A stretch of DNA of 36,574 nucleotides from a bacterium (GTDB taxonomy: Bacteria > Armatimonadota > Chthonomonadetes > Chthonomonadales > JAMCWF01). This document shows positions 6,997-36,574 of this stretch, one piece after another. The DNA lies in contig JAKBZR010000027.1 of the NCBI GenBank assembly GCA_021842405.1, forward strand, positions 1 to 36,574, written 5' to 3'. Within the stretch, counting starts at the first letter, position 1, and each line of letters opens with the position of its first letter. Made by a program: the position numbers and the translations under genes. A model generated the notes under the pieces. The model was not told where the DNA came from, did no database searches, and worked only from the letters and a program-made list of their open reading frames with translations.

Positions 6997-8007
6997 CTAC
7001 CTCTTGCCGCCCTTGCCAAGCAGCCTCGCAGCCGGCGAAGCCAGCCGGTGCATGCTCACTATATCGGCGTCCACCAACTCAACGTAGCGCCGTGTCATCG
7101 CCATACTGCTATGACCTAGCGCCGCCTGCAAGCCGAAGGTGTGCCCGCCGCCCCGCAGAATCTCCACCGCGAAGGTGTGCCTGAATTTGTGAACGTTCGC
7201 CCCGTCTACGCCAGCCTCCTTGCCGAGATTGCAGATCAGGTGATACAAGCTGACCCTTGTAAAGCTGCCGCCGCACTCGCTCACAAACAGCGGCGCGTCA
7301 TCGCTCTGTCGTTCCACCCGAAAGTACCTGAACAAGAGGCGGGCGACCGTCGGGCTGAATACGATTTTGCGTCCCTTGCCGCCCTTGCCCATCACCCACG
7401 AGGTGGTTTGCTTCAGGTCTACGTCGCCTCGCCTGAGTGAGCACACTTCCGACGCCCTGGCGCCCGTGTCCAGCAGGAAGGCGATCAGGGCGACGTTTCT
7501 GGCGCTGTTGCGGCTGCGCTTGGCCGCCTCCATAAACCGCCTGATTTCATCGGCTGAGTACGGCTTCACGTCACTCATTCGAGCGACCGGCGCGCCGACC
7601 GCCTTCATCGGGTTACGGAACGCCACCCCTTCCATCTCCAAATCAGCGGCGATCCAGTTGAACAGGGTACGCAATGTCCGATAATAGGCGTGAATAGTGT
7701 AGGGCTTCACCTCGCCGGTCAGATGCGGGTTGCCCCAGCGTCCGTCTTTATGAGGGACGCGCAGATAGTTGAGAAACGCCCTGATTTCACGGGCGCCGCA
7801 GTGCGTCAGCTCATTCTGTCTGAGCCACCAGCGGAACTTGCCGGTAAGGTCGATCCGCCATCGGATGGTGGCTTTCGAGTGCATCCGCGCCTGACAGTCG
7901 GCAATCCATTCGTCAATCAGGCTTTCAAGTTCGCTAACCGGCCAAGCGGCGACCTCGCCCGTTTCCGGCCTGCCGGAATCGCGAAAAGCAAGTGATAAGT
8001 TATTCAT
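6997..8007 (-). CDS. Tyrosine recombinase, likely integrase of the tRNA-Pro element
   Basis: A 336-residue XerC/D-like recombinase starting at ATG 8007 behind GAGGAGGAG. The N-terminal SAM-like domain (ELESLIDEWIADCQARM to about 115) is followed by a complete catalytic domain: Arg in DTGARASEVCSL, Lys loop in MGKGGKGRKIV, HKFRHTFAVEIL, and LGHSSMAMTRRYVEL with the nucleophilic Tyr. The gene ends at 6997, before the stem-loop. Its start lies 89 bases from the 3' end of a tRNA-Pro gene, the usual arrangement for an integrase acting at a tRNA attachment site. The intergenic DNA has a 14-base direct repeat and a hairpin that could be arm sites. Confidence 0.93.
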   Translation of the reverse strand: MNNLSLAFRDSGRPETGEVAAWPVSELESLIDEWIADCQARMHSKATIRWRIDLTGKFRWWLRQNELTHCGAREIRAFLNYLRVPHKDGRWGNPHLTGEVKPYTIHAYYRTLRTLFNWIAADLEMEGVAFRNPMKAVGAPVARMSDVKPYSADEIRRFMEAAKRSRNSARNVALIAFLLDTGARASEVCSLRRGDVDLKQTTSWVMGKGGKGRKIVFSPTVARLLFRYFRVERQSDDAPLFVSECGGSFTRVSLYHLICNLGKEAGVDGANVHKFRHTFAVEILRGGGHTFGLQAALGHSSMAMTRRYVELVDADIVSMHRLASPAARLLGKGGKR

Positions 8008-17149: not shown

Positions 17150-17257
17150 ATGAAGATGGCTGATATGATCAATGATAACAAATACCATTGCAAGCGCTGG
17201 CAATTCGGCGTCCCGCCGGCCGGCAACGCCAACTTCGCTTGGGTGGGCGCCACATGA
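17150..17257 (+). pseudogene. HsdM fragment directly upstream of hsdR
   Basis: From 17195 this frame reads RWQFGVPPAGNANFAWV and then GAT and stop. GxPPxGNANFAWxQH is a distinctive stretch found just after the NPPF motif in many type I modification subunits. The frame is open from ATG 17150 (MKMADMINDNKYHCK). The TGA at 17255 overlaps the hsdR ATG as ATGA, so the piece may now act as a leader peptide. It differs from the matching part of the HsdM encoded at 20285, so it comes from another type I system. Confidence 0.7.
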
Positions 17258-19788
17258 AGGAAGCCACAGCCCGAATCAAGATCAACAAGCTGCTCGAAGC
17301 GGCTGGCTGGCGTTTCTTCCCCGATAGTCAGGCCCGGGCCAACATCCGTCTTGAGTCGACCGTAGCAATCACAGCCGCCGACCTCGACTCCCTCGGCGAG
17401 AACTTCGAGAAGGCCGAGCGCGGCTTTGTCGACTTCCTTTTGCTCGACGTTCGGGGCTTCCCGTTGATCGTTTTGGAGGCCAAGGCCGAGGACAAAAATC
17501 CCCTCGTCGGCAAGGAGCAGGCCCGCAAGTACGCCCGCTCCCAGAACTGCCGCTTCGTCATTCTCTCCAACGGCAACCTGCACTACTTCTGGGACCTGGA
17601 GCGTGGCAATCCCTACGTCATCACCTCGTTTCCAACGCCTGAATCCATTGCTGGCTACCAAAAAACCACTCCGAACCCACAATGTCTGGTTGAAGAACGC
17701 ATCGAGGTGGACTACATCGTCCTGACCCAGCGTCCGACCTACCAGTCCGAGGCGGACTGGAAGAATGAGGCCGAACGCCCGGCATACATCCAGGCCAACA
17801 AGCTCCGGTTCCTGCGCCCCTACCAGCTCAAGGCCATTCATCAGTTGCAGGCCGCTGTGCGGGATGGGAACGACCGCTTCCTCTTCGAAATGGCGACGGG
17901 CACCGGCAAGACGCTGACCGCCGCGGCCGTGGTCAAGCTCTTCCTGCGCTCGGCCAACGCCCGGCGCGTGCTCTTCCTGGTGGATCGGCTGGAGCTGGAA
18001 GACCAGGCCAAGAAGGCGTTCACCAGCTTGCTCTCCGCCGACTTCCAAACGGTCATCTACAAGGACAACCGTGATGACTGGCGGCGGGCCGAGATCGTGG
18101 TCACCACGGTGCAGTCGCTGCTCTTCAACAACAAGTACCAGCGGCTCTTCTCGCCAACCGACTTCGATCTGGTGATTTCCGACGAAGCGCACCGCTCCAT
18201 CGGCGGCAATGCCCGCGCCGTCTTCGACTACTTCATCGGCTACAAACTGGGCCTGACCGCCACGCCGAGGGATTACCTGCGCCGCTTCGATAAGGACAAC
18301 CCAAGCACCCGCGACCCGCGCGAGGCCGAACGCCGCCTGCTGCTCGACACCTATCGCACATTCGGCTGCGAGAGCGGCCAGCCGACCTTCCGTTATTCGC
18401 TGCTCGATGGCGTTAAAGACGGCTACCTTCTCAACCCGACCGTGGTGGATGCGCGCACGGAAATCACCACCGAACTGCTCTCCGAAGAGGGTTTCATCGT
18501 CTCGTTCACCGACGATACCGGCGAGGATCAGCAGGAAACCTTAAAGCAGCAGGAGTTCGAGAGGAGCTTCTTCTCGGAGGCGACCAACCAGCTTTTCTGC
18601 AAGACCTTCCTCGAGAATGCGCTACGCGACCCGGTCAGCGGCGAGATCGGTAAGTCCATCGTCTTCGCTGTAAGCCAGAACCACGCCGCCAAGCTGGCGC
18701 AGATTCTCAACCAGATCGCCGACCGCATGTTCCCCGGCAAATACCAGTCCGACTTCGCTGTGCAGGTCACCTCGCAGGTGCCGGACGCCCAGCAGTTCAC
18801 CATCAACTTTGCCAACAACAACTTGCTCGGCTCGGGCAACTTCATCCCGGCCTACAAGACAAGTAAGGCGCGGGTGTGCGTTACCGTCGGCATGATGACC
18901 ACCGGCTACGACTGCACCGACATCCTCAACCTCGGTCTGTTCCGGCCCATCTTTTCACCAACCGATTTCATCCAGATCAAGGGGCGCGGCACCCGCAAGC
19001 ATAACTTCCTCGAACAGCTTTTCGACGACAGCCTCAAGGACGGCGTTTTGCAGCCGCAGAAGACCGGCTTCAAGCTCTTCGACTTCTTCGCCAACTGCGA
19101 GTACTTCGAGACCGAGTTCAACTACGACGAGGTGATCAAGCTGCCGCGGCCGACCGGCAAGCCCCGCGATGACGGCGGCCAAACCGGGCCGGTGGCGTAC
19201 GAGGGAACCTACGAGCACCTGGGCGCCGATATCCTCGCTTCGATCCAGATTGCGGAAGTGGGCGCCGAAGGCATGAAGATCGACCGAATGTTCTTCGAGC
19301 GCTTCGAAGAGGCCGTGCGCGAAGACCCGGTCATCGTCGAGGCCGTCGAAGCCGGCCAGTGGGATCGCGTGATCGACTACGTGAACCGCGAGGTCTTCGA
19401 CAAGCCCGAGGAGTACTACAGCCTCGACAAGCTGCGCAAGGCCGCCGCCGTGGACCGGCGCATCACCCTGCGCGAAATCCTAGAGAAAGTCTTTGGGCTG
19501 ATCCCGCGCTTCAAGAGCAAGGACGAATTGCTCGAAGAAGAGTTCGCCAAGTTCGTGGCCGACCACGTCCCCGAGCCCCCCTCGGCGATCCCGGCCATCA
19601 AGCACTATTTCAAGGCCTACGTCACCAGCGGGCGGGTGCGCGAAATCATCGACCAGCGCCAGTTCACCGACCTGGCCACCAACCCGGTGTTCTCGACCCA
19701 CGACTTCCGCGCCGTGCCAAAGAAGTACCGCACGCTGATTCCTGAATACGTCAAGGACTACGTTTCGTTGAACCAGTTCGCCGCCTGA
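17254..19788 (+). CDS. hsdR: Type I restriction enzyme, R (motor/nuclease) subunit
   Basis: The 844-residue HsdR translocates DNA with ATP and cuts far from the recognition site in complex with the M and S functions. The N-terminal nuclease domain contains GFVDFLLLDVRGFPLIVLEAK (Asp and the ExK of PD-(D/E)XK near residues 60-75). The SF2 helicase motor has Walker A FEMATGTGKT (about 210), motif II VISDEAH (about 308), motif III LGLTATP and motif VI IQIKGRGTRK. A C-terminal helical domain follows. The start at 17254 is preferred over 17188 because the latter would overlay the HsdM remnant and family homology begins with KEATARIKINKLLEAAGW. It is followed 11 bases later by the GxxExxY gene. Confidence 0.95.
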   Translation: MKEATARIKINKLLEAAGWRFFPDSQARANIRLESTVAITAADLDSLGENFEKAERGFVDFLLLDVRGFPLIVLEAKAEDKNPLVGKEQARKYARSQNCRFVILSNGNLHYFWDLERGNPYVITSFPTPESIAGYQKTTPNPQCLVEERIEVDYIVLTQRPTYQSEADWKNEAERPAYIQANKLRFLRPYQLKAIHQLQAAVRDGNDRFLFEMATGTGKTLTAAAVVKLFLRSANARRVLFLVDRLELEDQAKKAFTSLLSADFQTVIYKDNRDDWRRAEIVVTTVQSLLFNNKYQRLFSPTDFDLVISDEAHRSIGGNARAVFDYFIGYKLGLTATPRDYLRRFDKDNPSTRDPREAERRLLLDTYRTFGCESGQPTFRYSLLDGVKDGYLLNPTVVDARTEITTELLSEEGFIVSFTDDTGEDQQETLKQQEFERSFFSEATNQLFCKTFLENALRDPVSGEIGKSIVFAVSQNHAAKLAQILNQIADRMFPGKYQSDFAVQVTSQVPDAQQFTINFANNNLLGSGNFIPAYKTSKARVCVTVGMMTTGYDCTDILNLGLFRPIFSPTDFIQIKGRGTRKHNFLEQLFDDSLKDGVLQPQKTGFKLFDFFANCEYFETEFNYDEVIKLPRPTGKPRDDGGQTGPVAYEGTYEHLGADILASIQIAEVGAEGMKIDRMFFERFEEAVREDPVIVEAVEAGQWDRVIDYVNREVFDKPEEYYSLDKLRKAAAVDRRITLREILEKVFGLIPRFKSKDELLEEEFAKFVADHVPEPPSAIPAIKHYFKAYVTSGRVREIIDQRQFTDLATNPVFSTHDFRAVPKKYRTLIPEYVKDYVSLNQFAA

Positions 19789-19799
19789 GGAAGTTGGAC

Positions 19800-20291
19800 A
19801 TGGATGGACAGGATATACAGGATGAGAGATTGAAACATGAAGAAATAACAGGGATCGTGATCGGTTGCGCTTTTGATGTGATGAACGAACTCGGCGCCGG
19901 CTTTCTCGAGTCCGTGTACGAGAAGGCACTCCTTGTCGCGATCCGACATAAGGGCCTTTCTGCAACATCCCAACATGCGGTGAAGGTGATGTTTCGGGGT
20001 GAATGCGTTGGGGGCTTCTATGCAGATATCCTCGTTGAGGAAAAGGTGATCCTTGAGTTGAAAGCGGTCAAAGCCATCGCACCGGAACACCAGGCCCAGA
20101 TCATCAACTATTTGAACGCCACGGGAATCGAAGTCGGCCATCTCATCAACTTTGGCAACCCAAAGCTTGAGTACAAGCGATTCACAAGGATTTTAGACTT
20201 GGATGATCAGCATGCACGGGAACCATTTCGATTCCAATCGACGATCCTGTATATCCTGTTCATCAGGGTAATTTCTCAACAAGCATGCTAG
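19800..20291 (+). CDS. GxxExxY protein (PD-(D/E)XK-like) bracketed by inverted repeats
   Basis: A 163-residue protein matching the GxxExxY family: VIGCAFDVMNELGAGFLESV then YEKAL, where GFLESVY is the naming motif. FYADILVEEKVILELKAVKA holds an Asp and ExK as in PD-(D/E)XK nucleases, and EHQAQIINYLNATGIEVGHL and INFGNPKLEYKRF complete the fold. The family is widespread but, to my knowledge, lacks an established function. The start codon and first residues (MDGQDIQDER) and the C-terminal STILYILFIRVI are encoded by the flanking inverted repeats. The gene lies between hsdR and hsdMS, overlapping the latter's start, so it is co-transcribed. It may be cargo of a mobile repeat unit rather than part of the R-M machine. 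Confidence 0.88.
   Translation: MDGQDIQDERLKHEEITGIVIGCAFDVMNELGAGFLESVYEKALLVAIRHKGLSATSQHAVKVMFRGECVGGFYADILVEEKVILELKAVKAIAPEHQAQIINYLNATGIEVGHLINFGNPKLEYKRFTRILDLDDQHAREPFRFQSTILYILFIRVISQQAC
19803..20264. mobile_element. Candidate GxxExxY mobile unit with ACAGGAT inverted repeats
   Basis: The 21-base left end at 19803-19823 (contains GACAGGATATACAGGAT) is complementary to 20244-20264 (contains ATCCTGTATATCCTGTT) with one mismatch. The 462-base unit contains essentially only the GxxExxY gene. It sits between hsdR and hsdMS, which are normally adjacent. A repeat of the same family without a gene is inside hsdMS. No target duplication was recognised. Confidence 0.65.
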
Positions 20292-22819
20292 ACACCACCA
20301 CCAAGCGCCGCATCGATACCGCCCGCGACATTCTCGTCGGTAAGGTGCCCGACCCCAAGAGTCAGGTCGAGCAGATCACCATCGCGCTGGTCTACAAGTT
20401 TATGGACGACATGGACGCCGAGTCTGAAGAGCTGGGCGGCAAGCGCAAGTTCTTTACCGGCGACTTCGCCCGTTACGGCTGGGCTAAACTCATGCGCGCC
20501 GGTCTGGGCGGCTTTGAGACGTTGAACCTGTATGCCGAAGGCATCACGCGCATGCCCGAAAACCCCGGCATCCCGCCACTGTTCCGCGACATCTTCAAGA
20601 ACGCCTTCCTGCCCTACCGCGACCCGGAGACCCTGCGCGCCTTCCTCAAGATCATTGACGAGTTCGAGTACGACCACTCCGAGCGCCTCGGCGACGCCTT
20701 CGAATACCTGCTCTCAGTACTCGGCTCCCAGGGCGATGCCGGCCAGTTCCGCACTCCGCGCCACATCATTGATTTCATCGTCGAGGTGGTGGACCCGAAG
20801 AAGAACGAGACCGTGCTCGACCCCGCCTGCGGCACCGCCGGATTCCTGATCTCGTCCTACAAGCACATCCTCAAGGCAAACCAAATCAACATGGATACAC
20901 AGGATGGACAGGATAAAGAGAAAGCCCAACCATCCTGTAAATCCTGCCCATCCATGTTCGTTTCTTCTCTAACCCCCGACGAGCGCGGACGGCTGGCCGC
21001 CAACTTCAGGGGCTACGACATCTCGCCCGACATGGTGCGCCTGTCGCTGGTCAACCTGTACCTGCACGGCTTCACCGACCCGCACATCTACGAGTACGAC
21101 ACCCTCACCAGCCAGGAGCGCTGGAACGAGCACGCCGACGTCATCCTCGCCAACCCGCCCTTCATGTCACCAAAGGGGGGCATCAAGCCGCACAACCGCT
21201 TCAGCGTGCAGAGCAAGCGCAGCGAGGTGCTGTTCGTGGACTACATGGCCGAGCACCTCACGCCCGGCGGCCGCGCTGGCATCATCGTGCCCGAAGGGAT
21301 CATCTTCCAGAGCCAGACCGCCTACAAAGACTTGCGAAAGATGCTTGTTGAAAACGCCCTCGTCGCCGTCGTCTCCCTGCCGGCTGGCGTGTTCAACCCG
21401 TACTCCGGCGTCAAGACCTCGATTCTGATCCTCGACAAGGCGCTGGCGAAGCAGAGCGGCAGCATCGCCTTCTTCAAGATCGAGAACGACGGCTTCGGCC
21501 TCGGCGCCCAGCGTCGCGCCTTCGACAAGAACGACCTGCCGCAAGCCCAGGCCGAGATCGGCGAATACCTGCGCCGCCTGCGCGCGGGGGAATCGGTGGC
21601 TGACTACCATCCCACGCTGGGCCTGATCGTGGCAAAGGAAAGGATCGCCGCGAATGGTGACTTCAACCTCAGCGGGGAGCGGTATCGGGAGGGGACTGAG
21701 CGGGCTTCCTCATATCCGCACGTTCGGCTGGGCGACGTCGCAAGGGTCACTTCTGGCAACTCGGCACCGCAGGGCGACGAATACTTTGCCGGAGGCGAAG
21801 CTCCCTTCATTCGCACGTCGGACGTCGGCGCTGTTCACCTTTCAGACAACTTCGTTGGTTCTGTTGACAAAGTGAACGCCAAGGCACTTGCGGAATTCCG
21901 TCTGGAGTTGTTTCCGGTTGGAACGATACTTTTTCCCAAGAGCGGCGCATCCACCTTTTTGAATCACCGGGTCGTCATGGGAGCACCAGCCTATGTGTCG
22001 AGTCATCTCGCCTGCATCATCTGCGAGGAGTCGAAGGCGCTCCCGAAGTACGTCTATCATCTTTTGTGTCGGGTTGATGCTCGCGACATAACGCCGGACC
22101 AGGCCTATCCGTCCTTGCGGCTATCGGAAATCGGAGCCATCCAAATCCCCCTGCCGCCGCTGGAGGTGCAGAAAGAGATCGTGGCGGAGATCGAGGGCTA
22201 CCAGAAGGTCATCAACGGTGCCCGCACCGTCCTCGATAACTACCGCCCGCACATCCCCATCCACCCCGACTGGCCGAAATGCAATCTTGGCAGCCTCGCC
22301 GAGAACTTGGATTCGCGTCGCGTCCCTATCACCAAAGGCGACCGCAAAGCAGGACCATTTCCTTACTACGGCGCGTCCGGCATCGTCGATTCCGTTGCCG
22401 AGTTCATCTTCGACGAAGACATCCTTCTCATTTCAGAGGATGGCGCGAACCTGCTCGCTCGATCAACGCCCATTGCATTCTCGGTGTCCGGTAAATGCTG
22501 GGTAAACAATCACGCTCACGTTTTGAAGTTCGCAGAACCCGCGACGCAGAAGTTCGTGGAGGTCTATCTCAATTCCATTTCCATCGAGGAATTCGTCACC
22601 GGCGCAGCGCAACCGAAGGTGAACCAAGAAGCGCTGAACAGAATCCCAATTCCGATCCCGGACGATGTCGTCATGCAGCAAGCCATCGTCGCCGAAATCG
22701 AAGCCGAACAGACGCTGGTCGCCGCCAACCGCGAGCTGATCGCGCGCATGGAGAAGAATATCCTAGTCACGCTCGCCCGTGTGTGGGGACCTGAAGCAAC
22801 TGTCACCTCAGAGACCTGA
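20285..22819 (+). CDS. Type I modification-specificity fusion protein (HsdM-HsdS)
   Basis: This 844-residue chain joins the N6-adenine methylase and specificity functions that are usually two genes. Residues 1-470 are HsdM: an N-terminal helical bundle, motif I VLDPACGTAGFLI (about 176), motif IV ILANPPFMSPKGG (about 288) and GGRAGIIVPEGIIFQ. Residues 480-660 form one target recognition domain (YPHVRLGDVARVTSGNSAPQ to IQIPLPPLEVQKEIVAEIEG). Residues 665-840 form a second (WPKCNLGSLAENLDSRRVP to IPDDVVMQQAIVAEIEAEQ), with the usual helical spacers after each. Two different domains imply a bipartite target. Residues 202-225 (MDTQDGQDKEKAQPSCKSCP and flanks) are an in-frame repeat insertion absent from ordinary HsdM. 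Start at ATG 20285. Confidence 0.93.
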   Translation: MLDTTTKRRIDTARDILVGKVPDPKSQVEQITIALVYKFMDDMDAESEELGGKRKFFTGDFARYGWAKLMRAGLGGFETLNLYAEGITRMPENPGIPPLFRDIFKNAFLPYRDPETLRAFLKIIDEFEYDHSERLGDAFEYLLSVLGSQGDAGQFRTPRHIIDFIVEVVDPKKNETVLDPACGTAGFLISSYKHILKANQINMDTQDGQDKEKAQPSCKSCPSMFVSSLTPDERGRLAANFRGYDISPDMVRLSLVNLYLHGFTDPHIYEYDTLTSQERWNEHADVILANPPFMSPKGGIKPHNRFSVQSKRSEVLFVDYMAEHLTPGGRAGIIVPEGIIFQSQTAYKDLRKMLVENALVAVVSLPAGVFNPYSGVKTSILILDKALAKQSGSIAFFKIENDGFGLGAQRRAFDKNDLPQAQAEIGEYLRRLRAGESVADYHPTLGLIVAKERIAANGDFNLSGERYREGTERASSYPHVRLGDVARVTSGNSAPQGDEYFAGGEAPFIRTSDVGAVHLSDNFVGSVDKVNAKALAEFRLELFPVGTILFPKSGASTFLNHRVVMGAPAYVSSHLACIICEESKALPKYVYHLLCRVDARDITPDQAYPSLRLSEIGAIQIPLPPLEVQKEIVAEIEGYQKVINGARTVLDNYRPHIPIHPDWPKCNLGSLAENLDSRRVPITKGDRKAGPFPYYGASGIVDSVAEFIFDEDILLISEDGANLLARSTPIAFSVSGKCWVNNHAHVLKFAEPATQKFVEVYLNSISIEEFVTGAAQPKVNQEALNRIPIPIPDDVVMQQAIVAEIEAEQTLVAANRELIARMEKNILVTLARVWGPEATVTSET
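20888..20958. repeat. Gene-less ACAGGAT palindromic repeat inserted in hsdMS
   Basis: The arms 20888-20914 and 20932-20958 both start from AACATGGAT outward and contain CAGGAT twice. They pair at 22 of 27 positions around a 17-base purine-rich loop. The sequence family is that of the ends of the GxxExxY unit. The insertion keeps the reading frame and adds about 24 residues between the methylase motif I region and the segment DERGRLAANFRGYDISPDM. Confidence 0.8.
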
Positions 22820-23772: not shown

Positions 23773-24100
23773 TCAAATCAGAATACGGCTGTTTAACTGC
23801 TGGTCAAACCCGTAGAAGCTGCTGGTGTTCCCACGCCGCTCCCGAAGCCAATCCGCCCCACTCGCCGGGGGAATCGGTGTAGTGGGCCTGAGTCACCAGG
23901 CTGGCGTCGGTCTCGATCAAAACGTTTTCACCATCACGAACGAAGATTACGGTACCCGACGAGTTGACCTTCTTCTGCCGCATCCCGTCCGCCGAGTAGG
24001 TGTAGGTCTCAGCCCCACCCGCAGAAGATACGCCGGTCAGTCGGTTCTCGAAATCCCAGGTGTAGGTAAAGGACACCCTTTGGATCGAACGGCATAGGCA
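23773..24100 (-). pseudogene. Rhs orphan cassette A, frameshifted and truncated core
   Basis: The minus strand reads FTYTWDFENRLTGVSS, ETYTYSADGMRQKKVNSSGT and ENVLIETDASLVTQAHYTDS, then GGLAS in one frame. An extra G (TCGGGAGCGG instead of TCGGAGCGG) shifts it to ERRGNTSSFYGFDQQLNSRI ending LI and stop. These match the conserved core of the other Rhs copies in the window. The core ends abruptly at the ILI codons, before the GGNITDSYLYKAFGEE part, and there is no tip. It is the most decayed member of the array. Confidence 0.85.
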
Positions 24101-24168
24101 TACTTTTCATATAAATCGATCCCTTGTGACCTCAAAAATAACTAATAACTAGAGGTGTCGAAAGTCAT

Positions 24169-24645
24169 TTATCTAGGAGTCGTCCAAATTCTAACATTAT
24201 TGTTATTGTCGTGGAACGCGATGACGGGCTTCCCATTAAGTCCTCTAAATGTAAGAATAATCCTCGTTTTTTTCCCTCTGAGAAGAATACCAGGTGGAGC
24301 ACCTCTAGCACCGGAATCAATGCCAACTATAGTTTTCTCTTTGTAGTTTTCCATACTAAGCGTCGAAGTACCCGTTGGGTCTAATCCAATGCCAAAGGCT
24401 CCATTTTTGTTGAAAATATCAAGACTTACGATCCCCGATTTGTAAAATCGATCGGGACCGAAATCCGCTAAAAGATGTCCCGTTTTATCTACTAGTTCAA
24501 ATCGCTGTGCACGAATTACGGCCGGATCTTTTGTTTGTGATCCGCTTACGTACGCGTTTAGAATAACGCCTGCCGATAACCCTAGCACAAAACCGAACAA
24601 TATTCTGCCGTTAAACAACCACTTGAATATCTGTCTTAAAAACAT
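24169..24645 (-). CDS. Membrane-anchored beta-rich protein, candidate Rhs-B partner
   Basis: The start is set at ATG 24645, preceded by GCAGGAGGACTTCCG, an excellent ribosome binding site. A reading from 24681 would overlap the stop of the Rhs B tip. The 158-residue product begins MFLRQIFKWLFNGRILFGFV with one membrane helix (FGFVLGLSAGVILNAYV). Repeated strand pairs follow: RAQRFELVDKTGHLLADFG, SLDIFNKNGAFGIGLDPTG, TIVGIDSGARGAP and RIILTFRGLNGKPVIAF. I recognise the general 'F-x-LVD-x-x-G' beta-repeat style but no named family. Its tight position after tip B fits an immunity gene, though this is inference. Confidence 0.6.
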   Translation of the reverse strand: MFLRQIFKWLFNGRILFGFVLGLSAGVILNAYVSGSQTKDPAVIRAQRFELVDKTGHLLADFGPDRFYKSGIVSLDIFNKNGAFGIGLDPTGTSTLSMENYKEKTIVGIDSGARGAPPGILLRGKKTRIILTFRGLNGKPVIAFHDNNNNVRIWTTPR

Positions 24646-24674
24646 CGGAAGTCCTCCTGCCTTTCGTTTCACCG

Positions 24675-25627
24675 TCACCATTGGTGCCCAAAGTCCGGTG
24701 GAGGCATCTTTCCACTCTCAATTATTGCTGCACATTCCTTCTCACACAACTCCTTTGCATCATCTTCATCCGGTACCTCTTCACATAAATCTTCGCAGCA
24801 ATCGTATTGCCATCCACCGACTTCATTTCCAAGCTGGATGCACGCCATATAGCATCCGTGACTGATACTATTCCACCAATTACAGTTTGAATGCGATGGA
24901 GATGGTGGTGAAGGCGGATGCGGTGGTGAAGGTGGATGCGGATGACATCGCACGTGTGACCCGCACCCCTCCTTTGCCATCATACATGCCGCTTTTGGCA
25001 GTATCCCCCAATCGATTAAGGCTTGATAGCAACACCAAAAACATATACCAGGAGGCGAGGAAGGACACCACCTCCGGCCACAAGGTCTCCATTTTCCCGA
25101 AGGATCCTCAAATAAAACCGGTCCATTCCCCACGTACCGATACAGATTCCAATCCCCCCCGTCAAACCCAATCGGATCCCGGCTTACCCACCTACCCAGA
25201 TCGGTCCGCAGATGCCTTGCCCTCACGTAAAGCCTGCTCGCGATGTCCCGGTAGTACCCCACCTGTCCGCCGAACCGCAGCGGGTTGACCGTCGTTCCCG
25301 ATACCAGAAGCTCCTCACCGAACGCCTTATAGAGGTAGCTGTCGGTAATGTTACCGCCCATTGAGATCAGAATGCGCGAATTGGCCTGCTGGTCGAACCC
25401 GTAAAAGCTGCTGGTTGAACCCCTCCGCTCCGAAGCTAATCCGCCCCACATTCCCGGATAGTCGGTGTAGTGGGCCTGCGTCACCAGGTTGGCGTCCGTC
25501 TCGATCAAAACGTTCTCCCCGTCCCGAACGAAGATTACGGTTCCAGACGAGTTGACTTTCTTCTGCCGCATCCCGTCCGCCGAATAGGTGTAGGTCTCAG
25601 CCGTACCGTCGGGATAGCTGACTTTGG
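24675..25627 (-). CDS. Rhs orphan cassette B with Cys/Pro-rich tip
   Basis: The frame carries conserved Rhs core from SYPDGTAETYTYSADGMRQ through GGNITDSYLYKAFGEELLV and RDIASRLYVRARHLRTDLG to SRDPIGFDGGDWNLYRYVGN, the junction where Rhs tips diverge. The tip (about 140 residues) is unlike the others: Cys-rich (CFWCCYQALIDW, CCEDLCEEV) with a Pro-Ser-His spacer. It matches no toxin I know. There is no YD-repeat N-terminus, start codon context or secretion signal, so it is probably a silent cassette. Its 5' end abuts a MITE inserted at TTAA, and ORF-calling runs on into the MITE to 25646. Confidence 0.8.
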
Positions 25628-25755
25628 TTAAGAGCCTGTCCGACAAACTTCAAAATTAACTACAATGATACTATATGTAGTAGTATAATGAATTTATATT
25701 AACAATATATTGTATATCATATTTTTATGATTGGGTTTATCAGACAAGCTCTTAA
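25628..25755. mobile_element. 120-bp MITE with TTAA flanks, ends match the IS at 36467
   Basis: The element 25632-25751 starts GAGCCTGTCCGACAAAC and ends with the complement of GAGCTTGTCTGATAAAC. Including TTAA on each side (25628-25631, 25752-25755), the arms match at 18 of 21. The interior is AT-rich and non-coding. The left end is identical over 17 bases to the end of the insertion sequence that starts at 36467, so that IS family could have moved it. Confidence 0.8.
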
Positions 25756-25756
25756 C

Positions 25757-26353
25757 TCAATGATAAAGGACGCTCCCAACGGTGCATATATAAAATAATA
25801 TATAAAATGAAATACCGAAATACAACGTTCTTTTATTCAAACCAAATAATGGATGTAATTTATACCCTATCGAAAAATACAGAGATCCACAAACTATTTC
25901 CGGCATCACCGTAATCAATACCCATAAGGCAAACGAGGAAAAGTTCCCTCCAACTGATAAGAGGATACCCATACGGGTTAATATCAACCCATAAATGACG
26001 CTAATAAGGTACATGGCAGTAAAACTATATCCAATACAAGTTACAGGTCTGAATCGAAATCTTTTTTGCAGTACCGTAATTAAAGATAATATCCATCCAT
26101 ACACCACACCGAGCGGTATCCAGGCTGGCAAAGCGAGAAAAAGAAATGGCACCCCCATTAATATAAAAAATGGCAGATAAATAAAGTTGTCGACATAGAC
26201 TCGCGCTTGAAGAGGATACAAGGAAGACTGCCCTATACAGAAAGAAGCAGGCAAAGATGCAACACCTATGGCGGTCATTATCACGGATGTAATGATCGCC
26301 CGTCCGCTAGTACTTTCTGACCATTTTATTAAAGGTTGGGGGGCATCAGCCAA
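25757..26353 (-). CDS. Integral membrane protein, candidate Rhs-C partner
   Basis: A 198-residue protein with about five hydrophobic helices (for example IITSVIMTAIGVASLPASF, IYLPFFILMGVPFLFLALPA, IPLGVVYGWILSLI, CIGYSFTAMYLISVIYGLIL and GISFYILFYICTVGSVLY). The family is not recognised. It lies 107 bases downstream of the Rhs C tip, on the same strand and before the next cassette, where an immunity gene would be in an Rhs array. A membrane immunity protein would suit a tip acting in the envelope, but nothing in the sequence proves it. Confidence 0.6.
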   Translation of the reverse strand: MADAPQPLIKWSESTSGRAIITSVIMTAIGVASLPASFCIGQSSLYPLQARVYVDNFIYLPFFILMGVPFLFLALPAWIPLGVVYGWILSLITVLQKRFRFRPVTCIGYSFTAMYLISVIYGLILTRMGILLSVGGNFSSFALWVLITVMPEIVCGSLYFSIGYKLHPLFGLNKRTLYFGISFYILFYICTVGSVLYH

Positions 26354-26460
26354 TTGGTTTCCCTCCTCTCTGAGATAAGGAACGGTCTGCTAGAATGTCC
26401 TCCTTGTTTACACGGTTGTTACCTCTAACGATATATGAAATATCACCCATTTTTAAACCT

Positions 26461-27514
26461 TTAATATGGGGCGTATGGACCCATAACTGGACCTGCTGGA
26501 TTATATGGATATGGCAAAGGTGTATGGGGTATGTAAAAATTATCCGGCGGCGGGAGATTATTTGTAACGTTGCATTGCTTTAATAAAGATGAGACAAAGT
26601 CTTGACATGAATGACCCCAAACGTTGTAGTAGGGGCCTCCGGGTGCTGGCCCAATTCCTGGAAACCATTGCTTGCCACCTATTGTAGACCCAACTCCTTT
26701 GGCGTAAGCGGCTTCTGCACAAAGGCACTCCTGTTGTTGTGGAGTTACCGGCAACGGCGTGCAATGAACATTGATGCCCTGCCATCCGCCCTTGTTCTCT
26801 GGGCAACTACCTTTCCCAATCATTATCCCTCCCCGACTGTAACCGATACAGCCACAGCCGGCGGTCTTGAGATACCAATGCCCATCGGCCTCGTATGGCA
26901 ATCCTGGAAATACCGGCCTCCAGCAAAATTTCAAACCTACAGGAAGAGTCCCAAACGGATCGGTCTCTATAACAGGTCCATTCCCCACATACCGATACAG
27001 ATTCCAATCCCCACCGTCAAACCCGATCGGATCCCGACTCACCCACCGTCCCGTAGTCACATCCAACTCTCTGTGCCTCACGTACAGCCTGCTCGCGATG
27101 TCCCGCCAGTACCCCACCTGTCCGCCGAACCGCAGCGGATTGACCGTCGTCCCCGAAACCAGAAGCTCCTCACCGAACGCCTTATACAGGTAACTGTCGG
27201 TAATGTTACCACCGATTGAGACCAATATTCTAGTGTTGCTCTGCGGGTCAAACCCGTAGAAGCTGCTGACAGAACCCCTCCGCTCCGAAGCCAATCCGCC
27301 CCACATACCGGGTGAATCGGTGTAGTGAGCCTGGGTGATCAGGTTGGCGTCAATCTCGATTAGCATGTTCTGGCCGTCCCGCACGAAGATCACGGTTCCC
27401 GACGAGTTGACCTTCTTCTGCCGCATGCCGTCAGCCGAGTAGGTGTAGGTCTCAACGCCGCTTGGTGAGGAAACGCCGATCAGCCGATTCTCAAAGTCCC
27501 TTATATAGGTAGTA
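26461..27514 (-). CDS. Rhs orphan cassette C with possible papain-fold tip
   Basis: Core homology begins 12 bases after the propeller gene stop (TTYIRDFENRLIGVSS) and runs through SADGMRQKKVNSSGTVIFVR, GGNITDSYLYKAFGEELLVS and YVRHRELDVTTGRWVSRDP to DWNLYRYVGNGPVIETDP. The approximately 160-residue tip has GYSRGGIMIGKG, QQQECLCAEAAYAKGVG and NVWGHSCQDFVSSLLKQC. The last resembles Cys-containing motifs of NlpC/CHAP-like amidases, but the assignment is weak. There is no start signal or N-terminal shell; ATG 27426 lies inside the core. Part of its core is identical over about 60 bases to the long Rhs gene at 30235. Confidence 0.8.
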
Positions 27515-27525
27515 AAAATATCCGT

Positions 27526-28533
27526 TCACCAATCGGGTGAGGATATGCTTTTAGTGCCCCCAAGTCGGGGAATAATCTGATGTTGGTGAGAGCCATCGGG
27601 ATTTGAGACGTAAAGCACCACTGTACCCACTGAGGAAGGAATTTTCTTTCCTCGTATAACCATCCAGCGCGGCCCATATTTGAGATACAAAATTTTATCT
27701 CCGCCGGGCGACCAAGAGACACGGTCACACATCACGTTCTTTATCGGCAATTGGTGCAAATCACTCCCGCTAGGCCTTACTGTGTAAAGTTCCATTGGAA
27801 AAACGTGGGTGCTCCCACGAGTACAACCAAATAGAATTAAATTTCTTTTTTGCGACCAATTGGGGTAAACGCAATCACCGGAAGGTTGATGTGGCAGTAT
27901 TCGAGGAACCCTTCCATTTGCATTAACAAGCCATATTTTCCACTTTCCCGAATGGTTTGAGGCAAAAGCAATTGTTTTGCCGCTTGGAGACCAGCTTGGG
28001 TTACGTATGTCACAGTCGCCGCTATATAATATTCTAATTTTATGGGTTGCGATATTGAGTACGCACAACCAGGAGTGCTCTTGTGGGTCCGTAGGCGATG
28101 AGCGTACAAATGCCAATCTCTTCTCATCCGGAGACCAAGCGGGTTGAAAGTCCATCCCGATCGTGACCCGTCTCTTATTGGTGCCATCGGCATTCATTAT
28201 GTAAATGCCATCGGGCAAGCTTCCGGAATAGTACCAGGTACCAGCACTATAGGCAATGAGAGAGCGACTAGGGGACCATGAAGGGCAATAAACAAACGGC
28301 TCATCTCCCCGAAGATCGCATCGGAATTTGTCTTCCGGATCTAACAAATAAATGCCTTCGCAAGCGATCGGATAGGCCTCCCAACTTCGTTTCGGGCGGC
28401 GCCGAAAGTGGTTCAAAAACGCTCTGGACGATATCTCGTTTGCATAAAAATAATCGGCTCTCGATGAATTTTCCGAACAGATAGGCAAGAGGAGAATTAG
28501 CATCAATGTCGTTATTACGGTGAACCTATACAT
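27526..28533 (-). CDS. Secreted PD40/TolB-like beta-propeller, candidate Rhs-D partner
   Basis: The start at ATG 28533 (MYRFTVITTLMLILLLPICS) gives a signal peptide and 335 residues. A GTG at 28551 overlaps the tip D stop and is a less likely start. The mature protein has repeated PD40-type blades: GDEPFVYCPSWSPSRSLIAY, GMDFQPAWSPDEKRLAFVRS, DIRNPSWSPSGKTIAFASN, GDCVYPNWSQKRNLILFG and DRVSWSPGGDKILYLKY. This is the repeated (P)xWSPDG-IAF unit of TolB/WD40-like propellers, which bind proteins or ligands in the envelope. Translational contact with tip D suggests an immunity or partner role. Confidence 0.75.
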   Translation of the reverse strand: MYRFTVITTLMLILLLPICSENSSRADYFYANEISSRAFLNHFRRRPKRSWEAYPIACEGIYLLDPEDKFRCDLRGDEPFVYCPSWSPSRSLIAYSAGTWYYSGSLPDGIYIMNADGTNKRRVTIGMDFQPAWSPDEKRLAFVRSSPTDPQEHSWLCVLNIATHKIRILYSGDCDIRNPSWSPSGKTIAFASNHSGKWKIWLVNANGRVPRILPHQPSGDCVYPNWSQKRNLILFGCTRGSTHVFPMELYTVRPSGSDLHQLPIKNVMCDRVSWSPGGDKILYLKYGPRWMVIRGKKIPSSVGTVVLYVSNPDGSHQHQIIPRLGGTKSISSPDW

Positions 28534-28547
28534 CCGACATACCCTTA

Positions 28548-29360
28548 TCACCCAAAATTATCCCAACAATCATGCAGCCGTGTATCCCTTGAAGAATTAT
28601 TATATTCGGCCTCTGAAACACAGACGGGCCACAGACCGAAGCCAAATATATTTTGATGAAGATCTATGAGTCGCCCAGCAACATAAGGACCGGCGTCAAC
28701 AACTGTAACGGTAACTAAATCTCCAGTCTTTCGGTTAAATACCTTTAGTTTCCCTCCGCATATCTTGGGTTTATAAGCAGCAATTTTCGGTACCGTGTCT
28801 CCCAGTTCATCCCACACATACTTGCAATAACAGCTTCTTGGAGTAACAGTAGGATCCGGTTTCACATGCCGACACTTGTCTTCTTTTGGCCAGCAAGAAA
28901 GATATACACCGCATGCTAAGCATTGGTTCTCCTTGCAAGTCCACGTAGATGCAATTCCTTCTATCCATCTTTCTTTTTTGTTAGCCGGTGGTGGACAAGG
29001 TTTCAGGTGTTGCTTTTCCGGTTTTTGTGGTGCAAGTCCATTCATAGATACAAGGTTGGTTGGATTATTAGCTGCATAAGGGAGCGCAAATATTGGGACT
29101 TTGATAGTATTAAGAAGAACAGACAATAAATCAATGGGAAGTATCAGCCCATCTTGGAAAAACGGATCTCTACTCATCCACCGCCCCAGATCAGTCCGCA
29201 GGTGCCTCGCCCTCACGTAAAGCCTGCTCGCTATGTCACGATAATACCCGACCTGCCCGCCGAACCGCAGCGGATTGACCGTCGTGCCCGATACCAGAAG
29301 CTCCTCGCCGAATGCCTTGTAAAGGTAACTGTCGGTAATATTGCCGCCGATTGAGACCAG
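28548..29360 (-). CDS. Rhs orphan cassette D with double-psi beta-barrel-like tip
   Basis: The core starts abruptly at LLVSIGGNITDSYLYKAFGE and continues FGGQVGYYRDIASRLYVRA and RHLRTDLGRWMSRDP, so only the last piece of core is kept. The tip (about 190 residues) is Cys-rich and then reads KICGGKLKVFNRKTGDL, VTVTVVDAGPYVAGRLIDLH. That is very like the RlpA/barwin double-psi beta-barrel (GKxVxVxNxxxG, then DRGPFxxGRxIDLS), with the conserved Asp in DAGPY. Such folds bind or cut peptidoglycan. The tip overlaps the region of the next gene's start. No start codon context; GTG 29216 is only the longest ORF start. Confidence 0.75.
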   Translation of the reverse strand: MVSIGGNITDSYLYKAFGEELLVSGTTVNPLRFGGQVGYYRDIASRLYVRARHLRTDLGRWMSRDPFFQDGLILPIDLLSVLLNTIKVPIFALPYAANNPTNLVSMNGLAPQKPEKQHLKPCPPPANKKERWIEGIASTWTCKENQCLACGVYLSCWPKEDKCRHVKPDPTVTPRSCYCKYVWDELGDTVPKIAAYKPKICGGKLKVFNRKTGDLVTVTVVDAGPYVAGRLIDLHQNIFGFGLWPVCVSEAEYNNSSRDTRLHDCWDNFG

Positions 29361-30201
29361 AAGAAGGAAGGGGTTCCACTTGTAAGCCGCCGGCGATAAC
29401 AGTGTTCTTCCTTACTCCGTACTTTTTCAAAAAATAGTCGAACTCAACCGAAGGATAATATGGATGAACCCACCCTCCAATACCATCGGTACGATCGTAA
29501 AACCACATCTTTACCGGTTTTAGCCTGCCATCGGAAAGAAGTTTCCAAGGATACCTCTCATCAAATTCTACATACTTATTTCGGGATGTAGTCGGGGATT
29601 GATACGGATATCCTGAAATATCTCTATGCTTCTGTTGCTCTGTTCTACTCGGTACAATAAGTCCATCCGGTATACCCCATTGGTTTAGGAATCCATCTAC
29701 TTGGTGTTCGGGAACCCAATGTGGTACATCAAAAATGTAACGATTGAGTGCGTAGAGTTGAGGCAACCGCAAATTAGTAAGGGTGTTAATCTCAGCCAAC
29801 CCTATCCGCGCGGCTTTCCTGGAAACAAAACTGTAAGTTCTCCCTGGAAGTTTCATGAACACGATTCGACGTTCCGCCTCGCGGATGTCTCCCAACGAAT
29901 ATTTTGCAATACGATTTATGACACTTACAGCAACCGGAAGCTCATTGTGAGAATCAATCTGACGCGGACAACGATCTAAAAGTTTCAAGATCGCTTTCAC
30001 ATGTTTTTCAACGTAAGGCAATCGCAACGACACTTTCCTATTCGACTTCATAGATAATGTGAAAGATGTATATTGCTGATCGTTTCTTTTAAGATAAAAA
30101 GTTGATACAGTGCTACATATTTGCATGTCCAGCCTTCTGTAATGCATCGCTTCCATTCCAACTATTACAAAGAATGATGTAAGAAAAAGTAAAACCTTCA
30201 T
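29361..30201 (-). CDS. Hypothetical exported protein, 3' end cut by Rhs cassette D
   Basis: The ATG at 30201 follows AGAGAAGAAGA and a hydrophobic start MKVLLFLTSFFVIVGMEA, a probable signal peptide or lipoprotein-like leader without a lipobox. About 278 residues are unique, with no family recognised (DRCPRQIDSHNELPVAVSV, YALNRYIFDVPHWVPEHQV, KMWFYDRTDGIGGWVHPYYP). After VIAGGLQVEPLP the frame enters the antisense-phase Rhs core of cassette D and ends at 29236 with an artificial tail of about 42 residues, so the native C-terminus is probably lost. Its position just downstream of the long Rhs gene makes it the candidate partner of that tip. Confidence 0.6.
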
Positions 30202-30234
30202 TCTTCTTCTCTTTTCCTATCACCTGCCAGTTTG

Positions 30235-32095
30235 TTATTGACACTTATGGTACTTGGGGCAGCATTCGATTGTCTGCTTATGTTTTTTACAGCAACAATT
30301 GAACTTTATTTTCAGATAGTGGTCTTGCGCTTTTTTGTCATTCCACCCTTTGGGGGCGTTCTTCCTCCACGGGAGCCACCCAGGCGGGATATGGGATTTG
30401 CGAGAAGAACAATGCCACGGTCCGGTTTTTGACTCTTTAAGATGATATCCGCTTACAAAAGCGACCTTTCCAATTTCGCTAATATTCCCATACATATTAC
30501 TTAGTACACTACCCGTAGGCAAAAGTATGTCATATCCTCCTAACCCTCGGTTTTTGCACGGCGGGCCATAAGAAATTTTACCTTTCCTGACCTGCCATGC
30601 CTCCCAGTATTCTGTAAAATTTTTCCATCCTGTGGGAAGTGGTACGGGTTGATTGTTATTGCAGTAAAAGACATGCCACTCAAAACGAATATGTTGTATT
30701 ATCCACCCCTTGGCATGGACCTTACCAGAACCCTCTATGTGATACTCTGTTAAAAATCCAACGTCGCTGCAGGTTAAACTAGACAGCCCTGTGGGTTTGA
30801 TGAACAAATTAACTCCCGATTTAACCTGCTTGTAATCCTCTGTGATAGTATTCTGATTATATGAATACTGACTCAATCCATCCTCTGTAAATATCGGATC
30901 CCTGCTCATCCACCGCCCCAAATCCGTCCGATAGTGCCTCGCCCTCACGTAAAGCCTGCTCGCGATGTCGCGCCAGTACCCGACCTGCCCCCCGTACCGC
31001 ATCGGGTTGACCGTCGTGCCCGATACAGCCAACTCCTCGCCGAAGGCTTTGTACAGGTAACTGTCGGTGATATTACCACCGATTGAGACCAATATTCTAG
31101 TGTTGCTCTGCGGGTCAAACCCGTAGAAGCTGCTGACAGAACCTCTTCGCTCCGAAGCCAATCCGCCCCACATACCGGGGAAGTCGGTGTAGTGAGCCTG
31201 GGTCACCAGGCCGGCGTCGGTCTCGATCAGCACATTCTCGCCGTCCCGCACAAAGTAGACCGTTCCCGATGAAGTCGCCTTCTTCTCCCTTAACCCATCC
31301 GCCGAGTAAGAGTAGGTATCTACGGTTCCGTCGGGATAGCTGATGCCGATCAGCCGGTTCTCGGTGTCCCAGGTGTAGGTGGTCAGACTGCCGCCCGCGT
31401 TCTCCACCAAGAGATTGCCGTCGGCATCGTAAGTGTTGGTGGTCGGCTGGCCCGATGACGGCTGAAGCAGCACCAGCTCGTTAGCCGCGTTGTAGGAATA
31501 GGTGGTAAGCTGACCGCCGTCGTTTTTCACCAGCCGGTTGCCCAATGGATCGTAGGTGTAGGTGGTGTTGTAGGCGTTGGAACCCGACCACTGCTCGCTG
31601 ATTAACTGATAGCTCGGATCATAGCCGAAAGTGACTCTCGTGCCGTCCAACTCCACTACGTTCAACCGGTTGCCGACCGCATCGTAAGAGGCGGTATATA
31701 TTGCTAATGCCGAACCGTTTGAAGCAAGGTTACTTAAAACCGTCTCCCGGCCCGCCGCGTCGTAGGTGTGGTTGATACTCATCCCGCTGGCCAACGTCTT
31801 GACGCTCTCACGATCCAAAGCGTCGTACTGCAACGTGGTGAGTTCGTTGTAAGGGTTGATAATACCGGTCAGGCGACTCTGCGCGTCGTAAGCATAGGTG
31901 GTGTACCCGCCGTCCGAATCGAGCAGCAGTGTGCGGCTGCCAACCGGGTCAAACGTATAGGTCAAAGCCTTGCCGATCCCGTCGGTAGTTCCGATCAGCT
32001 TGCCGTCCGCGTCGTACCGATAGGAGGTGATGCCGGTCACATCCTGCATCGTAAGCTGACGACCCACCGCGTCGAAGATGTAGGTGGCCCGTCAA
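30235..32095 (-). CDS. Rhs/YD-repeat protein, 5' end missing
   Basis: The longest Rhs reading frame in the window (610 residues from the formal start at 32067, open to about 32095) has successive YD repeats: YRYDADGKLIGTTDGIGKAL, YTFDPVGSRTLLLDSDGGYT, YAYDAQSRLTGIINPYNEL, YDALDRESV and YDPLGNRLVKNDGGQLTTYS. Next comes the conserved core to the RHxxTDLGRWMSRDPI junction, followed by a unique 190-residue tip rich in Trp, Lys and Cys. In complete proteins these repeats form a shell around the toxin tip, with trafficking domains at the N-terminus. Here the shell is cut at ATYIFDAVGRQLTMQDV, where the DNA switches to the opposite-strand Cas1 remnant. Confidence 0.9.
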
Positions 32096-36100: not shown

Positions 36101-36466
36101 CTGACGCGCAAAATCTATGCGAACGTTCCGATCCTGATTGAGGAGACGAAGGGAGAGGCCGGTAACCCATGGGGCATTCAATTTTCTACAATGTTTCATA
36201 TGACAAACGATTCGCGCCTGTTTAAAAGGAATCAGGAGCTGGAAGATGAAGGATTCTGGCTCGGAGAGGGAACTGTTTATACGAAAGGTACGGTGAAGTA
36301 TCTGCCCCTCTATGAGGGCAAGATGGTTCAGTTATATGATCACCGAGCGGCGAGCATTATCGTTAATCCACAAAATCTACACCGACCAGCGCAGGAACAG
36401 ATCACCTCCATTACGGAGTACACCAATCCAAGCTACTGTCCAATGCCACAATTTTGGGTTAATGAA
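33110..36466 (+). CDS. Type IIG-like restriction-methylase, 3' end cut by an IS
   Basis: At least 1119 native residues remain. The N-terminal region holds PDYLLYTSPEIANIAFQ and ECLAILEAKRWN (about 134), a PD-(D/E)XK nuclease pattern. After a helical spacer comes GAYYTPEGWVSYIVEKTLQP, then motif I CDPAMGSAHFLVEATTF (about 528), CIYGVDVNPLAVELAKLSLW, and motif IV DAVIGNPPWERIKL (about 790), the Eco57I-type N6-adenine methylase. The C-terminal specificity region starts near 880 and is interrupted at WVNEE by the IS, after which the frame runs into IS sequence and stops at 36541. Such single-chain enzymes cut and methylate. DISARM DrmMI-type methylases look similar, but the ExK motif and lack of disarm genes favour type IIG. 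Start ATG 33110 has a poor ribosome site. Confidence 0.85.
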
Positions 36467-36574
36467 GAGCCTGTCCGACAAACCCATAACAAAGTGATAT
36501 TGACATTGTTGGCACCATGTGGTATAATCGCAATCATATAATCTCCAAACGAGGTATTTGATGCGCCATAACTT
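36467..36574 (+). mobile_element. Left end of an insertion sequence (continues past window)
   Basis: The terminal repeat GAGCCTGTCCGACAAACCC begins at 36467 inside the methylase gene. A promoter, a GAGGT ribosome site at 36551 and the start of an ORF at ATG 36561 (MRHN...) follow, so the transposase reads rightwards out of the window. The ends resemble those of IS5/IS4-type elements, but with four residues of transposase the family cannot be fixed. Confidence 0.8.
36500..36528 (+). promoter_or_regulatory. Consensus sigma-70 promoter at the IS end
   Basis: TTGACA (36500-36505) and TATAAT (36523-36528) are both perfect and separated by exactly 17 bases, the ideal arrangement. It would drive the transposase from ATG 36561, 33 bases downstream of the -10 box. 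Confidence 0.9.

Follow-up and report, generated by a model that had tools for sequence, protein, structure and literature searches.

The GxxExxY unit within a type I R-M operon

A small gene of the GxxExxY family lies between hsdR and an hsdM-hsdS fusion in the window (the whole stretch of DNA analysed, 36 574 nt), and both ends of this gene are built into inverted repeats. The locus raises the question of whether such genes travel as compact, repeat-bounded units, and whether the encoded protein is the enzyme that acts on the repeats. An inverted-repeat search of positions 19300–20800 returned a single inverted pair, with arms at 19803–19835 and 20232–20264. The core arms, GATGGACAGGATATACAGGAT (19803–19823) and GATGAACAGGATATACAGGAT (the reverse complement of 20244–20264), are identical at 20 of 21 positions. 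An earlier note, which had placed the start codon and the C-terminus of the gene in 21-base inverted repeats, was thus correct on this point. A chance palindrome was ruled out by shuffles and by shifted windows. The ORF can start at an ATG within the left repeat, the right repeat is translated, and the stop codon (20289–20291) overlaps the start of hsdM, so that the R-M operon is unbroken; all three genes run in the same direction. The coordinates are collected in Table 1.

Table 1. Features of the GxxExxY unit and its surroundings (window coordinates)
Feature	Position	Strand	Remarks
hsdR (type I restriction subunit)	17188..19788	+	Directly upstream of the GxxExxY unit; start uncertain (ORF from TTG 17188, ATG at 17254)
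Left repeat arm GACATGGATGGACAGGATATACAGGAT	19797..19823	+	Includes the candidate GxxExxY start, ATG 19800
GxxExxY gene (PF13366/TIGR04256)	19800..20291	+	163 aa from ATG 19800
Right repeat arm, reverse complement GATGAACAGGATATACAGGAT	20244..20264	-	Within the C-terminal codons; pairing weaker out to 20232
hsdM-hsdS fusion	20285..22819	+	Start codon overlapped by the GxxExxY stop
Gene-less 71-bp hairpin AACATGGATACACAGGATGGACAGGAT...ATCCTGTAAATCCTGCCCATCCATGTT	20888..20958	+	Repeat family of the GxxExxY arms; in frame inside hsdM

The gene is present in one copy in this genome. The sequence ACAGGATNNACAGGAT occurs three times in the entire 3.5-Mb genome, and all three are in the window: in the two arms and in the hairpin inside hsdM, which the earlier note had not mentioned. 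The end of the left arm, AACATGGATNNACAGGATNNACAGGAT, is also found at five related loci (L102, L104, L105, L107 and L109).

Between the residues KAN and LTPDER the window HsdM carries 29 residues (QINMDTQDGQDKEKAQPSCKSCPSMFVSS) where most homologues have about 7–10, such as IDSKGNST (L102), TDENGQGT (L217) and TAESVST (L227); two others, L212 and L115, have longer, unrelated stretches at this site. The corresponding RNA hairpin folds at -30.5 kcal/mol (z -5.4). The hairpin was not found in hsdM of L102, L106, L111, L115 or the other homologues compared and is unique to the window. Judging from these homologues, the hairpin, 640 bp from the unit, is itself an insertion.

Packaging of GxxExxY genes in inverted repeats

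TIGR04256 is present in 68 of the 291 genomes of the phylum, in up to 8 copies. Flanks were collected for about 110 GxxExxY genes of the phylum and 80 relatives from other phyla, and each locus was scored by the best ungapped inverted repeat spanning the gene, with scores ≥16 regarded as strong. Strong inverted repeats enclosed 63 of 85 loci in a first set (1 of 336 shifted windows) and 54 of 78 in a second (2 of 526). Over all loci with both flanks, 128 of 183 (70 %) lie within a strong inverted repeat, compared with 3 of 862 shifted windows; about 30 % of the 183 genes are without one. As a control, ParE toxin loci were taken from 40 of these genomes, and none of 30 reached even a score of 12, which rules out packaging as a general trait of small sporadic genes. 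The proposal that GxxExxY genes are generally compact repeat-bounded units is therefore borne out, and the genes examined, mostly packaged in this way, span about twenty bacterial phyla.

The arms have a median length of 33 nt and an internal autocorrelation that is maximal at lags of 9 and 10. They are made of two or three tandem 7-nt units of the general form CRNNRAK with a period of 9–10 nt, and are reversed in orientation at 12 loci. Several unit classes exist (ACAGGAT, CRCNGAT, CRCNGAG, CRCNAAG, CRCNAAT, CRCNRAA and GGGGAT). ACAGGAT, which the earlier note had taken for the repeat of the whole family, is thus one lineage-specific class among several and not a universal GxxExxY repeat.

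GxxExxY had no match in phages and occurred in only 8 of 72 556 plasmid records and 7 viral contigs, ruling out phage or plasmid cargo as the main route of spread. GxxExxY genes are very probably repeat-bounded units that spread horizontally together with their own repeats.

Co-inheritance of protein and repeat, and the ends of the element

Mapped onto a tree of 125 proteins, repeat class requires 24 changes, against a shuffled mean of 74 and minimum of 67; the tree is built from few columns and leaves many forks open, closely similar copies add to the clustering, and the class was assigned by motif (by eye at a few loci). Among the 57 rows that come from other phyla and name a host phylum, the class changes 8 times (26 when shuffled), and the host phylum 38 times (44 when shuffled), which is near random. 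At its deepest fork the tree divides proteins with units ending mostly in G from proteins with units ending mostly in T. An alignment-free comparison of GxxExxY proteins and repeats likewise gave a Mantel r of 0.378 (null maximum 0.048). At the level of sequence, then, protein lineage and repeat class are co-inherited across phyla.

Homology between copies in unrelated places ends at the outer edges of the arms. Among 125 element pairs with homology confined to the element, the similarity runs more than 8 nt past the outer repeat edge in just two pairs on the left and one on the right, i.e. the element ends are sharp. No target-site duplication was found; flanking direct repeats are no longer than at mismatched control ends. 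Some known insertion sequence and transposon families are also without target-site duplication.

The GxxExxY protein

The window protein matches PF13366 (E 1.4e-40) and TIGR04256 (E 2.7e-40) over the full models, with 137.4 bits (cut-off 35) and 138.7 bits (cut-off 22) at positions 2–115/116 and 2–117/117. Neither the Y1 (HUH) transposase family PF01797 nor PF05635 matches it, PF13366 alone doing so. The active-site set is E37, D76, E86-x-K88 and Q100xxxY104, and eleven residues are invariant in 50 sequences, including G34, E37, Y40, D76, E86, K88, Q100 and Y104. In the AlphaFold model the core (residues 11–130) has a pLDDT above 90, and most of the repeat-encoded tails are of low confidence and predicted to be disordered. 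A PDB sequence search matched GxxExxY to no solved structure. The predicted fold is closest to those of Cas4 SSO0001 (4ic1), LHK-Exo (3syy) and lambda exonuclease (E 1e-4 to 1e-3, modest TM-scores); RNA splicing endonucleases appear as weak matches far down the list. Between copies, including those in different contexts, dN/dS is 0.03–0.17, indicating purifying selection. From the invariant active site, the Cas4/lambda-exonuclease-like predicted fold and the dN/dS values we infer that GxxExxY is an active nuclease.

S23 genes with similar packaging

GxxExxY is not the only family with this architecture. Genes of PF05635 (S23, a four-helix bundle) lie in inverted arrays of tandem units at 53 of 67 loci (L228–L257, L350–L389); PF05635 has no match in the window genome. 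The S23 units, of AGTCATT, GTTGGCA, GGGTGTT, GTCGAAA and ACGACAGGT types, are unlike those of GxxExxY, and here also repeat and protein similarity go together (Mantel r 0.353, null maximum 0.107). The same repeats were not found around unrelated genes as often as around GxxExxY genes: units of GxxExxY type occur in 3 of 54 repeat-bounded S23 genes and in 118 of 140 GxxExxY genes. S23 proteins are not known to be nucleases. Their similar packaging speaks for a general class of element, and makes it less compelling that movement should require a nuclease. It is conceivable, although we would put it at somewhat less than an even chance, that the GxxExxY genes and the S23/four-helix-bundle genes represent two lineages within a single, broad and unnamed class of bacterial selfish elements, in which a small non-transposase protein is enclosed by inverted tandem-unit arrays of lineage-own sequence, spreads across phyla, and seeds gene-less hairpins by a mechanism outside the known transposase classes.

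The S23 parallel also bears on the possibility that the unit acts at the level of RNA, like the intervening sequences (IVS) of 23S rRNA. The arms would then form a transcript stem that is cut by RNase III or by the protein, so that operons and genes could tolerate the insertion; the unit would spread through reverse transcription or recombination, with the GxxExxY and S23 proteins as helpers that bind or process RNA. IVS elements are excised by RNase III (PMC4990558), and the S23 genes, which encode the IVS proteins, are packaged likewise. Additionally, the whole unit folds with its arms paired, the solo hairpin folds strongly, the units lie within an operon with coupled stop and start codons, and the weak, distant matches to RNA splicing endonucleases would fit. 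However, both the nearest fold matches and the QxxxY motif belong to DNA exonucleases and Cas4, the arms are oppositely oriented at the 12 loci mentioned, strong repeats also occur solo in DNA outside any obvious transcript context, and an RNA stem would not need tandem units. An RNA-level element is hence considered unlikely.

Dispersed gene-less copies

Pairs of ACAGGAT repeats (ACAGGATNNACAGGAT) other than the gene's own arms occur in 18 of 68 genomes with GxxExxY and 11 of 223 others (p 2.6e-6), and CGCAGAT pairs (CGCAGATNNACGCAGAT) in 15 of 68 and 9 of 223 (p 2e-5), associations to which genome size, lifestyle and relatedness could contribute. A few of the ACAGGAT matches in genomes without GxxExxY are ordinary coding sequence. 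When the class of the solo repeats was compared with that of the resident gene, the result was positive for CGCAGAT (7 of 12 vs 8 of 56, p 0.003) and null for ACAGGAT (2 of 5 vs 16 of 63); genome G005 carries 31 ACAGGAT pairs yet no gene of the ACAGGAT class among its examined loci. Solo repeats are also found in some genomes without GxxExxY, for example 16 CGCAGAT copies in G201 and 5 ACAGGAT copies in G268.

Genome G275 contains dispersed repeats that are 85–97 % identical to the arms of its own GxxExxY element (L068), either as hairpins (three units, GACGGC, loop, GCCGTC, three units) or as single arms or half-elements. The G275 element is absent from the same locus in G274, where a different long palindrome (GTCGTGGGTCGGCTCACCAGAGCCGAC and its inverse) occupies the site (G274:C600:1810–2060, L326). 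No base-exact empty site was found: in a same-genus comparison for L024 the flanks were scattered, and between L071 and G190 the content between the flanks differs.

The solo repeats could mean that the repeats are moved by other machinery (host replication, recombination or an enzyme elsewhere), and that small genes such as GxxExxY and S23 ride along, exploiting or regulating the repeats, for instance by binding to them. Such hitch-hiking would suit an architecture common to two unrelated protein families, the repeats of G201 and G268, and the lack of target duplication. We regard it as improbable all the same, because across phyla the repeat class follows the GxxExxY tree and the unit grammar is specific to each family, a pattern that a passenger would not bring about, and because solo repeats are enriched in genomes with GxxExxY and the nuclease site is under strong purifying selection.

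Some further arrangements of the repeats were observed. At L200 (G210:C53:1356–2160) ACAGGAT hairpins form a tandem array with a spacing of roughly 165 bp. In G057 (L348, L349) CGCAGAT hairpins adjoin arrays of CGCAGAG and CACGAAG types; different repeat classes thus nest or cluster. Another 27-bp sequence, at about 3075–3103 of L024 (G079), is present at more than 10 places in that single-contig genome.

The hsdR–hsdM junction

In four related loci (L212, L213, L215 and L218) the gap between hsdR and hsdM is only 14–19 bp. Two others (L214 and L227) have a four-helix-bundle-like gene at the junction, recognised by eye in the translation. The gap in L216 is 275 bp and consists of tandem CCCCGCTTCGCGGCCATCTCC copies and their inverse, a different repeat family. 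The junction therefore appears to take such inserts repeatedly. The junction gene of L227 includes tandem units of GTGGAC type.

The order hsdR–GxxExxY–hsdM is common to the window and L102, L104, L106, L111 and L115, which come from several phyla (Desulfuromonadales for L102, Planctomycetota for L104, Bacteroidetes for L106, Spirochaetota for L115), although most of these related loci are metagenome bins and single host assignments may be wrong. The wider GxxExxY set includes isolates of Geomonas, Nostoc linckia, Arenimonas metalli, Longilinea and Botrimarina. In the nearest relatives with this order, homology to the window extends through the flanks, which together with the shared order indicates that the unit has travelled with the R-M operon in this clade. 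The earlier note had the unit separating genes that are normally adjacent. That much agrees with the short junctions of the four loci above, but a fresh insertion into the window operon is ruled out by the order kept in five relatives. On the evidence of gene order and flanks, the unit is, in the window clade, a long-term resident of the junction that has moved along with the R-M operon.

Outside this arrangement, homology of L107 and L109 to the window is limited to the element, and that of L105 to the element plus 21 nt of the hsdM start. L105 (2440–3250) holds a full unit, then the 21 nt of hsdM start, then a copy of the unit in which the gene is reduced to its first and last codons. This suggests local duplication after exit from an R-M operon.

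Long residence also raises the possibility that GxxExxY is an accessory type I restriction subunit, e.g. a defence or anti-autoimmunity nuclease, and that the repeats are leftovers. The gene order kept in the five relatives and the overlap of the GxxExxY stop with the hsdM start would accord with such a role. Against it, the closely homologous operons with short junctions have no GxxExxY, L214 and L227 have the four-helix-bundle gene instead, near relatives of L107 and L109 lie outside R-M operons, and no PADLOC model matches GxxExxY. Likewise, the repeats have been kept though the operons diverged to about 76 % identity. A subunit role is accordingly judged very improbable.

Comparison with known systems and proposed mechanism

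Packaging, its generality, co-inheritance, sharp ends, dispersed gene-less copies and purifying selection are all read from sequences, and they are best accommodated if the unit (19797–20264) is a member of an extensive family of selfish elements that apparently has not been described before, has the build of REP/RAYT or MITE/IS pairs, and is moved by a Cas4-like PD-(D/E)XK nuclease acting on its repeats. We favour this reading, with moderate confidence.

REP/RAYT systems have flanking inverted repeats, dispersed doublets and singlets, protein–repeat co-evolution, a single-copy gene and no clear target duplication, and the enzymes of REP/RAYT and REPINs are IS200/IS605-related Y1 transposases (PMC2817692, PMC3116915). 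The GxxExxY gene resembles them in lying in inverted repeats that are also dispersed as hairpins and singlets, in the co-evolution of the two, in that each version usually occurs once in a genome, and in having no evident target duplication. It differs in that the protein is, by predicted fold, a Cas4-like PD-(D/E)XK nuclease and not a Y1 HUH transposase, in that the arms consist of two or three tandem 7-nt units with a 9–10 nt period, and in that the family spans many phyla and, in the genomes examined, has fewer dispersed copies (77 at most). Since the defining Y1 transposase is absent, the GxxExxY unit would work like REP/RAYT without being a member. With MITE/IS pairs it shares a gene-bearing unit and gene-less hairpins that have the same, sharp ends; unlike them, it has no DDE, HUH, serine or tyrosine transposase, and no target duplication was found. 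The 23S rRNA IVS/S23 elements (PF05635; PMC4990558) are similarly short, sporadic units with one small gene between inverted repeats, which in this phylum are also tandem-unit repeats, but S23 is an unrelated four-helix protein and its repeat units are different. Cas4, lambda exonuclease and RecB-like PD-(D/E)XK proteins share the predicted fold and the motif set E, D, E-x-K and QxxxY, whereas GxxExxY has a core of about 120 residues, no conserved iron-sulphur cysteine set, and its own bounding repeats.

In the proposed mechanism the nuclease would recognise the tandem 7-nt units, whose 9–10 bp period would place successive units on one face of the helix. Nicking or cutting at the units might then begin copying or excision, with host repair or replication, or a further partner, finishing the move, and gene-less hairpins could be mobilised in trans. 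In the window clade the unit would have become established at the hsdR–hsdM junction, where the overlap of its stop codon with the hsdM start keeps the operon intact, and would since have been carried along as the R-M operon spread.

Among environmental bacteria GxxExxY is common as a family annotated as 'unknown', and it has the look of a mobile genetic element of a class that has escaped notice. Should the protein be the enzyme of such a repeat-bounded unit, this would account for the family itself and for the tandem-unit hairpin families (CACAGAG, CGCAGAT and ACAGGAT types) of many genomes, and would place a Cas4-like nuclease among the DNA-moving enzymes. The pairing of each protein lineage with its own 7-nt unit amounts to a directly testable recognition code, and through the S23/IVS parallel the long-standing problem of the spread of IVS-like elements becomes testable too. 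In open-licence full text GxxExxY is named in only two papers (in one of them as an annotation beside a CRISPR reverse transcriptase), and the repeat, the Pfam/TIGRFAM accessions and the packaging were not found described there; a description elsewhere is possible.

Other features of the window

A large Eco57I/DrmMI/type IIG-like methyltransferase gene is located at 33110–36541, and the window is therefore probably part of a defence island. By eye, two proteins (217–1218 and 6997–8007) resemble tyrosine recombinases, and the region between their genes may be an integrated element. On the minus strand, 23804–32067 contains RHS/YD-repeat C-terminal cassettes (GGNITDSYLYKAFGEEL), likewise recognized by eye, in at least three copies with differing tails.
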